DNA of 64,000 nt from Blepharisma japonicum (taxonomy: Eukaryota; Ciliophora; Heterotrichea; Heterotrichida; Blepharismidae). Position numbers and translations under genes: made by a program. The notes beneath the pieces were generated by a model that had not been told where the DNA came from, ran no database searches, and saw nothing but the letters and a program-made list of their open reading frames with translations. Position 1 is the stretch's first letter. Every line of letters starts with the position of its first letter. Shown here in pieces: positions 54,608-62,888 of this stretch. The stretch is from contig CATKHK010000025.1 of the NCBI GenBank assembly GCA_949751835.1, forward strand, positions 248,001-312,000, in the 5' to 3' direction.

Positions 54608-57139
54608 ATGGAATCAGGGCAAGTTGACGTTGTGATTGAGCATTGGTAAATCCTATTTAGTAAAAATTGCAAGGCTCATGAATGGTGCACAAAGCATGAA
54701 GAAGCAAAGTACAATACATTTTTCGAGAAGACTAAAGCAGAAATAGAGTCTGTGTGCCCAGAAGTTGTTGTTCATGAAAACTATGAACACCCAATGCTAC
54801 GCCCTATATTAGAAGCTAGCACAAAAAGAAGCCCATTTCCAAAACCATCATTTCCAAGAATGGGCTCCTTTGAGGTCTATTTCAGAGGACAAGTAATTTC
54901 ATCAAAACTTCAAGCAGGGATTTGGCCTCATCCTGCAGCAATTGCCCATAAAATTAGGGAAATGCTAGATGGAGTAATTCCGGCTCATCAATCTAAAACT
55001 CAAAGTGATTTTAATCCCAGAAATAAAAGCAGTGTTTCGCCACAAAGAAATTCGGCTTCGCCACCAAGGAATGCCCAGAGTCCGCAAAAACCAAAATTTG
55101 TTGCACCAAAGTCAGCTCAAGCAAAGCCAAATGTAGAAAAGCCAAATGGAGATGTGAAGAAGGTTGAAGAAATTAAAAAAGAGCAGCCGGCTATTCAAAG
55201 TCCAGAGTATGAGTTTAATTTTGAAAGTGAGCCAATGTCAAGATCACGAGAGGAACAGCGTGCAAGAAATGAAGAAAAAAAAGAAGATGTTGAAGATAAA
55301 TATAGTGAGCACGCAAGTGAGGCTCATAAGAGTATGCGCAGTGAGCATTCTCAAAAAATCAATGAAGTAAATAATGAAGAGATTAATAAAGAGGCTGACG
55401 AAGATCACTATGAAGAAGATTATTATGAGGAAGAAAACAACAGTGCTAATCCAAGCAACCATCAAACTCCTTCTCATAAAAGTTTGCATGAAAGCCAACA
55501 TGGAACTCCTTCTCAGAAAAGCTTAAATGAAAGCCAGCATGGAGCTCCTTCTCATCAAAGTTTTTATGAAAGCCAAAAAGGAACTCCTTCTCAGAAAAGC
55601 TTAAATGAAAGCCAGCATGGAGCTCCTTCTCATCAAAGTTTTTATGAAAGCCAAAAAGGAACTCCTTCTCAGAAAAGCTTAAACCAAAGCCAGCATGAAG
55701 ATCCTTCTTTTAAGAGTTTACATGAAAGTCAAAAAGGAACTCCTTCTCAGAAAAGCTTAAACCAAAGCCAGCATGAAGATCCTTCTTATAAGAGTTTACA
55801 TGAAAGCCAAAAAGGAACTCCTTCTCAGAAAAGCTTAAACCAAAGCCAGCATGAGAAAAGTTTCCATGAAAGCGAGTATGGAACTCCTTCTCACAAGAGT
55901 TTGCAAGAAAGCCAGCATGAAACCCCTTCTCACCAGAGCTTGCATGAAAGCCAGCATGAAGATCCGTCTTTTAAAAGTTTGCATGAAAGCCAAGACCCTT
56001 CTAATAAAAGTTTGCATGAAAGTCAGTATGGAACACCTGTCAATAAGAGTTTGCATGAAAGTCAGCATGAAGTTCTTTCTCAAAAGAGCTTGCATGAAAG
56101 TCAGTATGGAATTTCTTCCCAAAAGAGCTTGCAAGAAAGCCAGCATGGAACTCCTTCCCAGAAGAGCTTGCATGAAAGTCAGTATGGAATTTCTTCCCAG
56201 AAGAGCTTGCAAGAAAGCCAGCACGGAACTCCTTCCCAGAAGAGCTTGCATGAAAGCCAGCACGGAACTCCTTCCCAGAAGAGTTTACATGAAAGTCAGT
56301 ATGGAATTTCTTCCCAGAAGAGCTTGCATGAAAGCCAGCACGGAACTCCTTCCCAGAAGAGTTTACATGAAAGTCAGTATGGAATTTCTTCCCAGAAGAG
56401 TTTGCATGAAAGCTTGCAAGAAGCTCCTTCAGAGAAGAGTTTGCATGAAAGCTTGCACGAAGCTCCTTCTCATCAGAGTTTCCATGAAAGCCAGCATGAA
56501 GCTCTATCACATCAAAGTTTGCATGAAAGCCAAAATGGAGCATCCCATAAAAGTTTGCATGAAAGTCAGTTAGAAGCTTCCAATCATTCACTTCGCGAAA
56601 CTCCTTCTCATAAATCTATTGCGAATGAAACTCCAGCCCATGAAACCCCAGATCATTACTCTGAAGTACATGAAAATGAAAATGGTGAGCCTGAAACTGA
56701 CCAAATCCAAGCAGGATCTGGAGAATATGAAGAAGTGTCTCCTGAAAATTATGAGCAAGAAGCCCACGAAAACTATGAAGTAATTTTTACTTAGCAAGAA
56801 GAAGCTCATGAAAATCAAGAACCTATTGCAGAGCCTCCATATCCAGTCACAAATACTATTGCTGCAGAAATGCTTGTAGGTGAAACTAAACAAAAGAAAA
56901 TCACTATTTCTAACGATACTGAAGTGGAACAGCTGTATCACGTTGAAATCACTGACCCAGAGTTTATCGAACTTAAAGAACAAGACATTACTATCGCTCC
57001 CAACAGCAAAGGGAAAATTCAATTAGTCTTTCTGCCAATTGAAGAGCCCTGCCAAGCAATTACCTATTTAATAATCCAACAGGATGAAGTAGTCAAGGAC
57101 TGTTATGAAATCAAAATCGATTATATGAGCAGTAACTAG
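54608..57139 (+). CDS. Selenoprotein-W-like (Rdx) domain joined to 13-residue repeats and a C-terminal MSP/Ig-like domain
   Basis: The protein is 833 aa, from ATG 54608-54610 to TAG 57137-57139, with 15-nt introns at 54646-54660 (GTAAATCCTATTTAG, inside the codon for the first Cys of the motif) and 56780-56794 (GTAATTTTTACTTAG). Residues ~5-115 resemble the Rdx/SelW thioredoxin-like fold, with CKNC at 13-16 (Cys in place of selenocysteine) and the C-terminal strand GSFEVYFRGQVISSKLQAGIWP. A Pro/Ser/Glu/Lys-rich linker follows, then about 30 copies of a 13-residue repeat of the form TPSQKSLHESQHG (residues ~280-660). The C-terminal ~90 residues (GETKQKKITISNDTEVEQLY ... IAPNSKGKIQLVF) look like an MSP/ASH-type beta-sandwich. 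Function unknown. Confidence 0.85.
55459..56600 (+). repeat. Tandem coding repeat, 39-bp period, about 30 units
   Basis: The DNA repeats with a period of 39 bp, equal to 13 codons (x-P-S-x-K-S-L-H-E-S-Q-x-x). Units fall in subtypes (TPSQKSLHESQHG, ISSQKSLQESQHG, APSHQSFYESQKG, DPSFKSLHESQKG) that recur in pairs, giving higher-order periods near 78 bp. A few units are short by 2-4 residues but keep the frame. The array is part of the gene at 54608-57139. Confidence 0.9.
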
Positions 57140-59456: not shown

Positions 59457-61724
59457 TTATAAAATTAAACTAATTGATTCACTGATATCACCTTCTTCTC
59501 TTCTCAGTTTATCATAGGCTTCAACTGCGGCTTGTTTCTTAACAAACCATGGGAGTTTTCCTTGTTTTTCAATATAAGGCTCGCCGTTTACAAAAATAAG
59601 TATTTTCACAGCCTTTTTTTCTATTAATTCTTGATATTCTATGTTTTTCCCGCGCCGACTACCATACTCAACAAGCCTTTCACAAATGTTTTTTTGGCAT
59701 TTATCTTTATTCTTGACTAAATATATAATAGGATCTGAAAATAAATCTTCAATTATTTCACAAGTGGCGATCAACGAATCACAATCAATAAGTATCGCTC
59801 CGATTAAAGCTTCTAAGCAGTCACTTAAAATTTTAGGAGGATCGTCACAGTGAGGATCAAAGTTCAGCAAATCGTCTTCCCAGTGAGAGTTAACTACAAA
59901 TCTCATGATTTCAGTCTTTAATTCATCTTTAACATGGATATGTTTATCAAGACCAGTAGATATGGCTAATTTTCTCAAAAAATTGTTGCTTACTAGAATA
60001 TGTCTGAATGTGGTGAGCTGCTCTGCTGTGAATTGTCCAAATGCAAATAATTCGGAAAGCACTATGAAATCAACGATTGAGTTGCCTAAAAATTCAAATC
60101 TGTTGTAATTGCGTATTGGATCAGAAGAATAGTGGGTTAGGGCTTGAGACAGGAGGTTTTTATTTGAGAAATAATAGTCAATAGATGATTCTATAACTTC
60201 AATTTTTTTTATTGAAGGATCATACAGAATAGGTAACAATTCACGAAGCTTTAGCTGATTTTCTGGGAAAGAAAATATTCTTCTAGAATCTAAAATCGTA
60301 AAATTATCATTGCTTAGAAGCTTCATCGTATCTTCATAAGCTGAATCTTTTATTAAAATCTCAAGATCATATATGAATTGTGCAGTATCATAAATTCCAT
60401 TGCCCAAATAAAGAGCCCCAATTAAAGCTTCAACAAACTCAGCCATCATTTTGTCAGTGATTTTATGCTCAACATCCCATGTTTCCCCAGAAATCATTTT
60501 TGATGCATAAAATGGGGGTCTGAATTTAGAAAGTTTCAATGAATTTGTCTTGAGATATCTTTGGAGCTCGAATTTCCATCCTGCAGAACTTAAATTTGGA
60601 CTGCTGATATTTTTAAACCTACTAATAGAAAGCTGGTACTCATTTTTTTTTGGGTATCTAAAATACACATGAATTGTTGAAACTACCTTAAGTATTGAAT
60701 TTCCCAGAACTTGCAAATAATCATAATTGTTTTTACTATCTAGGCAGGGGCTTGTGCAGGCGTCTTTTAAATATTTAAAGCAGCCCTTGTAGCCGAAAGT
60801 TTGAGAAAATTCTCATATGTATGAAGCTGATTCTAATTCCACCAGTGTACTTAATAGATTTCCACATTGAAGTCAAGTAGAAGCTTTAAGGGGGTATACG
60901 TCAACAAGACTGGAATGAAGAACTGGGGTGCCTTTTTCATTTATTTTTTGCTTTTCTATTTCGCTTGCATTAATAGGATTGTCAATATGCCTTGCTGATT
61001 TTGTTTGGGATGCGAAAATAAAAATGTTATCAGTTGATATTGATTTGATCATACCAGAGAAGAATAATTTTTTGAAATCAGATAAAGATTCAATATTAAG
61101 TCTGTCATCTAAAAGTACATCAATTGCGCTATAGGAATCGTAGAGATCGATTAAATCTTGCAAATCGGGGTTGTCACTGCCAAGTAAGTTCTGTAGAAAA
61201 TCTTTTGAATCCATGCTATCATCAAAGCAAGAAATGCATTGCCAGGTTGTATTTTTGCCTTTTAAAGATTTTACAATCATGTTTTCTCTTTGATTTGGAG
61301 TGAGGTCGCTGACTTTGATTGGCTTTTCTTTTTCTAAGAGGAGAAATATTGTAACCCAGTTAATAGTGTTATCAATTAAGGGAACTATTAAGTAGTTAGC
61401 ACTTGAAATTTCGCCCTCCTTAGCTTTTGAGGTTCGAATAATATCAGTTCAAAATTCATGTTGGAAATCTCGTAAATCATTCAGTGATTGAAAACTGAAG
61501 CGCAATATTCCTAGGGGATCTAAAAGTTGATCTGGAACTGGAAAAGGCTGAAAAGGTAAGATGACACCAAAATCAGGAGCAGAATGAATTCGATATAAAA
61601 AGCCTATATTTTTATTTTCTTCAGGTGAGAAAGTTTGGGAGAGAACGGATGAAAAATTTCGATAGGATTTTGTGTCCTGAGGAAGGGTTGGTTTGAGCTT
61701 TTTAGATATTGAAGGCGCTTCCAT
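59457..61724 (-). CDS. Dicer-like protein: tandem RNase III domains plus dsRBD, altered active sites
   Basis: The protein is 755 aa, from ATG 61722-61724 to TAA 59457-59459, with UGA codons read as Trp. No helicase is present. Residues ~1-330 are weakly structured, with a possible PAZ/platform remnant. RNase IIIa (~330-470) has YLQVLGNSILK and MAEFVEALIGALYL. RNase IIIb (~510-660) has RFEFLGNSIVDFI and ILSDCLEALIGAIL. A dsRBD-like end follows (YQELIEKK...KLPWFVKKQAAVEAYDKL). Compared with the usual E..LGD signature, IIIa has Gln and Asn (~338, 342) and Glu for Asp (~429); IIIb keeps Glu (~544) but has Asn for Asp (~548) and keeps Asp/Glu (~635, 638). Ciliates use Dicer-like proteins in small-RNA-guided DNA elimination. 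Confidence 0.88.
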
Positions 61725-61910: not shown

Positions 61911-62888
61911 TTAATTATTTCTTAAATTTGTATGAATCATGTGGAGTTTTTTATTTGCTTCCTTAACTAAACTGTTTTCTGGGCCTAATTCTGTCAAAAT
62001 CTCTAGCAATAGCTCGTATCCGTTTCCAGTCAAATTTTGTTCCATTTCAATAATCTCAAATGCTTTTTTAATCGCTTCCTCGTGAAATCCAAATTCAAAA
62101 TGAGCTGCTGCTAATCGACAATGGTTTTCAGTATTTTCATAATCAAACAAAATATCTTCTTGTATCCCAAGAATTACCGCTCTATATTCTTTCATGTTTA
62201 CTTTATATAAGCTTTTTTCTACAGCTTGATTTATTGTATCTACTAGTTTGCCTACTTCAGGATTTCTTGAAGCATCAACTCCATACTTATTAGAAATCCT
62301 TTTAGCAAATATTTCAGCATTCGGCAAATCACCGATTTCTAAGTAACCTCTAGCTAAGGCTACCCAGCAAGTAAGCTCATATTTTTCTAAAAAAAAGTCA
62401 CTACTAATTATATCTTTATACTCCTGGATAGATTCTAAAATTTTATTTTGTTGGAGAAAATCAGCAGCTTTATTGATTTTTGTAATAATTATGTCTTCTT
62501 TTGTGCATATACCAGACATAAGTCGCAAAACATTGACAAAGTTTTCCATTGATTTTTCATCTAAATTGCCTTCAACTCTTTCTATTAAAGCGCCATGATT
62601 GAGAATGAATAGTGCTGGGATTTTTTTAATTTGGACTGATTGAGCAAGAAGAGGTAAGGATTCAACATTTAGTTTGGCATATCCTCACTTACCTTTGTCA
62701 ATATTGAAGTAATTTGAGAACACTCGGGATATTTGTCGTGATGTATCACATCATTCAGCATAGCATTGCAAAAGAACTGGAGTTTGAGCCTTCATAACGT
62801 TTTTATCCCAGTTTTCAATGGTGTCAATTTCATAGATGCTTTCATTGACTACTCCGAACAATCGAAATAGTCTAAATTTTGTAAGCAT
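61911..62888 (-). CDS. Thioredoxin-domain plus TPR protein (CnoX/YbbN-like), probably mitochondrial
   Basis: The protein is 325 aa, from ATG 62886-62888 (MLTKFRLFRLFGVVN, presequence-like) to TAA 61911-61913. Residues ~25-115 form a thioredoxin fold (VLLQCYAEWCDTSRQI ... KLNVESLPLLAQSVQIKKIPALFIL) with WCDTS in place of WCGPC; the Trp is UGA. The C-terminal ~200 residues are TPR-like helices (ARGYLEIGDLPNAEIFAKRI, LAAAHFEFGFHEEAIKKAF). This order matches the bacterial co-chaperone CnoX/YbbN and its mitochondrial relatives. The missing second Cys argues for a holdase-type rather than oxidoreductase role; this is inference. Confidence 0.85.

Follow-up and report, generated by a model that had tools for sequence, protein, structure and literature searches.

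A Dicer-like paralogue of Blepharisma japonicum with asparagine at the first catalytic aspartate of both RNase III domains: a possible RNA-binding pseudoenzyme

Introduction

Does a Dicer-like (Dcl) protein with Asn at the first catalytic Asp of both of its RNase III domains still cut RNA, and if it does not, is its gene decaying or is it kept for another role? The question is raised by a gene of Blepharisma japonicum that lies in the stretch of 64,000 nucleotides analysed here (assembly GCA_949751835.1, contig CATKHK010000025.1, positions 248,001 to 312,000), which is called the window. Contigs are referred to below by short names, C25 being the one that carries the window. Published articles are cited by PMC number.

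The window gene and its protein

With UGA read as Trp, positions 59457-61724 of the minus strand encode 755 residues followed by a terminal TAA, and the frame is complete. Three tryptophans (W92, W284, and W304) are encoded by TGA, and under the standard code the same interval contains three in-frame UGA stops. The use of UGA for Trp is described for Blepharisma stoltei, together with the telomere repeat CCCTAACA and a genome of 66% AT (PMC9942806). In the present host genome (45.2 Mb in 224 contigs), three units of CCCTAACA are matched 77 times in the forward and 91 times in the reverse direction, the reversed pattern has 0 matches, and the GC content of the window is about 33%. A search of the assembly with the window protein found a single copy of its gene. 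Its main parts are as follows.

59457..61724, minus strand: Dicer-like (Dcl) protein gene, 755 amino acids plus TAA, aligned from Met1 with the intact paralogue on contig C76
60780..61724, minus strand: N-terminal half, residues 1-315, the Dicer region ahead of RNase IIIa
60360..60779, minus strand: RNase IIIa region, residues 316-455, bounds picked from the alignment
59730..60212, minus strand: RNase IIIb region, residues 505-665, bounds picked from the alignment

Pfam Ribonuclease_3 matches two stretches of the protein (E 1.5e-33), that is, tandem RNase III domains, and the Dicers of the PDB align over both of them. Pfam finds neither a helicase nor a Dicer_dimer match. The first-pass annotation had also noted the missing helicase; the observation is correct by Pfam and loses its value as a clue, since this is normal for ciliate Dcls (PMC11441545). 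PAZ is detected by Pfam neither in the window protein nor in its sister Dcls, and the Dicer encoded on C20 reaches 13.2 bits against a cut-off of 28.8; a PDB profile search of the N-terminal half for PAZ or platform gave nothing relevant and one match at chance level. The N-terminal half has P115, I121, and W123 of the motif YLIVP...I(D/N)W in common with the C20 Dicer.

Directly upstream of the Dcl gene and on the same strand, window positions 61911-62888 encode a thioredoxin domain and a TPR_20 match just below the cut-off. Elsewhere in the window, about 28 copies of a 39-bp repeat (55465-56539) lie in a 666-codon frame (54794-56794, plus strand), which encodes a repeat protein rich in Ser, His, Glu, and Gln.

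Metal-ligand sites

The metal-ligand columns, which agree with the PDB alignments, are occupied in the window protein as follows.

60711..60713, minus strand: Q338 (CAA) at the first Glu ligand of RNase IIIa; Glu in the four other paralogues
60699..60701, minus strand: N342 (AAT) at the first catalytic Asp of RNase IIIa; Asp in the four other paralogues
60438..60440, minus strand: E429 (GAG) at the later Asp ligand of RNase IIIa; Asp in the four other paralogues
60429..60431, minus strand: E432, the last Glu ligand of RNase IIIa, kept
60102..60104, minus strand: N541 (AAC) in RNase IIIb; Glu in three sister Dcls, Gln in the C20 Dicer
60093..60095, minus strand: E544, the first Glu ligand of RNase IIIb, kept
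60081..60083, minus strand: N548 (AAC) at the first catalytic Asp of RNase IIIb; Asp in the four other paralogues
59820..59822, minus strand: D635, the later Asp ligand of RNase IIIb, kept
59811..59813, minus strand: E638, the last Glu ligand of RNase IIIb, kept

We take the counterparts in Aquifex RNase III to be E40, D44, D107, and E110, which would correspond to Q338, N342, E429, and E432 in RNase IIIa and to E544, N548, D635, and E638 in RNase IIIb. Against the set E, D, D, E of an active Dicer, RNase IIIa thus has Q, N, E, E and RNase IIIb has E, N, D, E. The first-pass reading is borne out here in full: both boxes read LGNS (N342 and N548), the gene coordinates 59457-61724 are exact, three of the four RNase IIIa ligands differ (Gln for Glu and Glu for the later Asp besides the Asn), and RNase IIIb retains three of four. 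N541 is not diagnostic, because Gln in the C20 Dicer marks the position as a tolerated site.

Four of the eight metal-ligand sites are altered in the window protein vs 0 of 32 in the four paralogues (Fisher p 8e-4, related proteins being treated as independent). This is a plain table of five proteins; control comparisons in which the window protein belongs to the reference set of three are blind to the four lost ligand sites and were not used. The Asp of the D44 column is present in 81 of 81 RNase III loci collected in two scans, one from a viral contig and 80 from bacterial genomes. The bacterial loci are the 80 top-ranking ones out of 425 relatives that were confirmed, and the scan patterns left the residue in that column uncovered.

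Compensation by a nearby acid, which would have supplied the catalytic Asp from a neighbouring position, is ruled out: in the alignment of the five proteins there is no new acid beside N342, and D552, four residues after N548, is shared by every one of them. Unrecognized 15-bp introns near the two Asn codons are likewise ruled out, as the alignment of the window protein with its C76 paralogue is free of gaps across both RNase III domains.

The Dcl/Dicer family of the host genome

RNase III domains were matched 11 times in the host genome, on six contigs: C3 has one match and the five others have two each. The window protein as query returned the same loci. Genes with two RNase III domains lie on C25 (the window gene), C76, C110, C73, and C20. 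The protein of C20 is a Dicer of 1401 residues with helicase and Dicer-dimer domains (Pfam). The other three are 58% (C76), 37% (C110), and 32-33% (C73) identical to the window protein. Ciliate Dcls as a class are described as lacking the additional N-terminal Dicer domains, within a Dcr/Dcl split (PMC11441545), and the four helicase-less proteins of this genome fit the ciliate Dcl as the literature defines it.

The proteins of C76, C110, C73, and C20 keep all eight metal-binding acids, and comparison of the paralogues within this one genome, a check proposed in the first pass, places Asn in the window paralogue only and Asp in the other four. In a tree of these proteins, which has a very long Dicer row, the window protein and that of C76 are sisters with support of 100/100, and the window branch is the longer one (0.55 vs 0.20). 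Because this closest relative is intact, the ligands were most simply lost after the duplication that separated the two.

The Dcl of C110 stops at 684 residues. The C-terminal dsRNA-binding domain (dsRBD) region that the window protein shares with C76 and C73 is missing from it, and the three frames just downstream show no continuation. The host genome also has at least 12 Piwi-domain matches, and four Piwi-domain genes stand in a row over about 12 kb of contig C87 (83374-95569).

Fold and dsRNA-binding domain

Residues 496-755 were modelled with AlphaFold2 from an alignment that included 54 other RNase III proteins. The model (pLDDT 87.9) has the RNase III helices followed by a helix, three strands, and a helix, the order of a dsRBD. 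The window protein is thus predicted to combine the RNase III fold with a C-terminal dsRBD at its RNase IIIb end:

59496..59687, minus strand: predicted C-terminal dsRBD, residues about 680-743 (AlphaFold2 model and Foldseek)

The pLDDT of this block starts at 83 and lies at 91-98 beyond its first residues, and the Foldseek matches of the model extend over it. At the head of the PDB matches are structures of Aquifex RNase III in complex with RNA, 2ez6 (D44N) being in the top three by E-value; ranks 8, 9, and 17 are mammalian and fly Dicers in dicing states. By sequence alone the dsRBD is weakly recognized: Pfam dsrm falls short of the C-terminus of the window protein and scores 21 bits in C76 at a cut-off of 23, and the best PDB match is a PKR dsRBD (E 0.24), so the assignment depends on the fold model. 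The family profile aligns to the C-terminus of DCL1. A single-sequence AlphaFold2 model of the whole protein was discarded (pLDDT 32), and no shape is claimed for the N-terminal half.

Mitoribosome chains also occur among the Foldseek matches, for example at rank 34, with 14-15% identity to the model. The chain concerned is presumably mL44, in which RNase III and dsRBD would serve a structural role. mL44 is a ribosomal subunit with one RNase III domain, whereas the window protein is a Dcl with two.

Natural and engineered counterparts

At the level of class rather than orthology, the window protein resembles Paramecium Dcl2, Dcl3, and Dcl5 and Tetrahymena Dcl1, which also have tandem RNase III domains and no helicase. 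These proteins dice scnRNA and iesRNA (PMC7374600), whereas the window protein is without four of its eight metal ligands. For one small-RNA class of Paramecium, Dcl2 is responsible for length and Dcl3 for sequence preference, and these two proteins show that Dcl paralogues can divide labour (PMC7374600). A second precedent comes from kinetoplastids, whose KREPB4-KREPB10 are, like the window protein, natural RNase III proteins kept without catalytic residues (PMC5770545, PMC9508840).

Both precedents speak for an obligate non-catalytic partner, which would bind an active Dcl and set substrate choice, length, or end sequence. Active KREN endonucleases are the inferred partners of the KREPB proteins with their non-catalytic RNase III domains (PMC5770545, PMC9508840), and the glycines of both LG(D/N) boxes, G341 and G547, are invariant in all five proteins of the host genome. 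However, the KREPB proteins are editosome components with an RNase III motif and a zinc finger, whereas the window protein has two RNase III domains and a dsRBD, and no zinc finger was found in it by Pfam. As its two RNase III domains are in one chain and are expected to pair there, the single-domain logic of KREPB does not apply to it, and an obligate partner is a rather unlikely explanation.

The closest counterparts at the ligand sites are engineered. Drosophila Dcr-2 with D1217N/D1476N is catalytically inactive and does not dice, and the change is equated with Aquifex D44N; the mutant was nevertheless seen with dsRNA bound, in a dicing-state complex whose two sites both contained metal ions (PMC9279154). 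Arabidopsis DCL1 with E1378Q/E1597Q, which are the Q338 and E544 columns when counted along our alignment, binds its substrates and does not restore miRNAs in the mutant; in wild-type plants it causes a dcl1-like phenotype, for which the authors consider competition the likely reason (PMC12825306). Mutants of Aquifex aeolicus RNase III including D44N bound RNA and lost cleavage, according to a review (PMC8138440). The window protein combines Asn in both domains, as in Dcr-2, with Gln in RNase IIIa, as in the DCL1 mutant. These dead Dicers were made in the laboratory, whereas the window protein is a natural, helicase-less Dcl with an additional Asp-to-Glu change in RNase IIIa. The Aquifex D44N enzyme has the identical Asp-to-Asn change, besides being a top-three structural match to the RNase IIIb-dsRBD model; it is a bacterial homodimer with one type of domain, whereas the window protein has two RNase III domains. 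Two groups of Dcr-2 chains in the PDB score about 4 bits above three others against either window domain (19.6 vs 15.6 and 19.5 vs 15.1, one pair per domain), as expected if the higher-scoring chains are the Asn mutants.

From these published mutants we infer that RNase IIIa would be non-cutting, that RNase IIIb would be very slow or non-cutting, and that binding of dsRNA would survive. Taken as a whole, the window protein is very probably catalytically dead or crippled. The first-pass suggestion was a non-catalytic Dicer partner. The absence of catalysis is well supported for RNase IIIa; for RNase IIIb it is likely, and the altered, slow site that had been offered as the other option may still apply there. 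Partner is one of several roles that the protein may have. Such a half-active nuclease, with RNase IIIa dead and RNase IIIb slow or using another metal, would nick one strand or release its product slowly. In RNase IIIb one of the four ligands is changed, metal ions were present in both sites of the Dcr-2 double Asn mutant (PMC9279154), and the title of PDB entry 2ez6 pairs Aquifex RNase III D44N with a product of dsRNA processing, so some activity may survive at an Asn site. The same Dcr-2 mutant has no dicing activity, however (PMC9279154), the Aquifex mutants lost cleavage, and more of the changes private to the window protein (defined below) fall in RNase IIIb (13) than in RNase IIIa (8). 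A half-active nuclease of this kind is an unlikely explanation.

Decay or retention

Two Dcl sequences of this genome differ in what they have lost. A Dcl fragment on contig C3 (3314-4005), 77-91% identical to C110, has four in-frame TAA/TAG stops and a frame break and keeps its four RNase IIIa acids, RNase IIIb lying beyond its reach; the window gene is the reverse, with altered acids and an intact frame. The fragment illustrates that Dcl copies do break in this genome, and a gene on its way out, with relaxing constraint and no function left, would also account for the longer branch of the window protein. Yet its 755 codons contain no stop or frameshift. When the C76 gene was allowed to evolve neutrally in simulation, 150 amino-acid changes were accompanied by 8.2 stops on average, and none of 1000 genes was still open; open frames made up 0.1% at 100 changes and 3.8% at 60. 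The alignment of the window protein with C76 has 311 differences in 748 residues, and the tree assigns the larger share to the window branch.

In a codon model without constraint on the ages of the two sisters, neutrality of the window branch was not rejected (2dlnL 2.73), as decay would allow. This result was read as saturation of synonymous sites, and a same-age constraint was therefore applied, which amounts to assuming an equal mutation rate at both loci. Under it, the model rejects neutral evolution of the window gene (2dlnL 239.7). The omega of this gene, 0.128, exceeds the 0.088 of C76 (p 0.048), a difference in the direction expected of relaxation. By region, the two are not significantly different in any of five (p 0.12 to 0.83), and the N-terminal halves are alike (0.110 vs 0.095), the window gene being as constrained there as the intact C76. 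With an open frame and an omega of 0.13 under equal sister age, ordinary decay is unlikely, and we consider a gene already without function quite improbable.

The excess change of the window protein is located in its RNase III domains. At sites where C110 and C73 agree, it has 32 private changes and C76 has 15; inside the RNase III domains the counts are 21 vs 7 (p 0.013), and elsewhere 11 vs 8 (p 0.65). At sites fixed in the other four proteins, changes are found at 17 of 83 in the window protein, 16 of 82 in C73, 9 of 75 in C110, and 1 of 67 in C76. C73 has kept all its acids, yet departs from fixed sites about as often as the window protein. Ligand sites are enriched in changes over other invariant sites at p 0.03 to 0.056; this enrichment is weak, and directed loss at catalytic sites is not claimed.

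Private changes of fixed acids to their own amide (Asp to Asn, Glu to Gln) make up 7 of 11 in the window protein and 2 of 12 in C110 and C73 together, a post hoc comparison (p 0.03) that deserves little weight. A much smaller p for this excess was set aside, as it used rough BLOSUM-derived rates. Since four changes of this kind (E59Q, D122N, E569Q, and E698Q) lie away from the active sites, the pattern may be partly general drift of the lineage. A shift in the net charge of the whole protein is ruled out (-17 vs -16 in C76).

An assembly error or an RNA-level codon change that leaves the real protein intact is highly improbable: the gene is present in a single copy in the assembly, but its four ligand changes are in separate codons of two domains with further private changes, which makes sequencing error unlikely, and we know of no editing of CAA to GAA and of no A-to-I editing of ciliate mRNA.

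A Dicer-like protein that may hold rather than cut

The explanation that we prefer, and to which we give about an even chance, is that the window protein is a duplicated ciliate Dcl which no longer dices and which selection maintains as an RNA-binding pseudoenzyme. Once separated from C76, the protein would have lost dicing and retained its RNA-binding parts. It may then hold, without cutting, dsRNA precursors or small-RNA duplexes, competing with or acting alongside the active Dcls, of which C76 is the closest, or shielding the RNA from them. As an outcome, the amount or kind of small RNA would be tuned, or duplexes would be handed on. Competition or shielding would be the simplest role, followed by that of a partner; we put the chance that the protein is a competitor or holder in particular at a little short of even. 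More tentative is the possibility of a natural dominant-negative or guide-holding Dicer, which would hold dsRNA or scnRNA duplexes and set the amount, timing, or choice of small RNAs.

The link to small RNAs of genome editing, which the first-pass annotation had raised, comes from membership of the Dcl group and from the literature on B. stoltei (PMC9942806, PMC9942856). One Dcl of B. stoltei is strongly upregulated (PMC9942806), and it is not assigned to any of the Dcls described here. A literature search by title and opening of the abstract found no report of a degenerate ciliate Dcl, and the parts of PMC10876655, PMC8059543, and PMC2287173 that were covered contain nothing on degenerate Dcls.

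If this explanation is true, a full-length pseudoenzyme of the Dicer type, maintained by selection, would mean that Dicer too can be converted into a regulator, and would do so in a ciliate system where Dicer products are thought to choose DNA for deletion. The question is directly testable, since a conjugation time course with 24-nt scnRNA-like RNAs has been published for Blepharisma (PMC9942856). Should the guide-holding role in particular be true, a ciliate would have arrived naturally at the double Asp-to-Asn change with which structural biologists inactivate Dicer, and the small RNAs regulated in this way would be those that direct DNA elimination.
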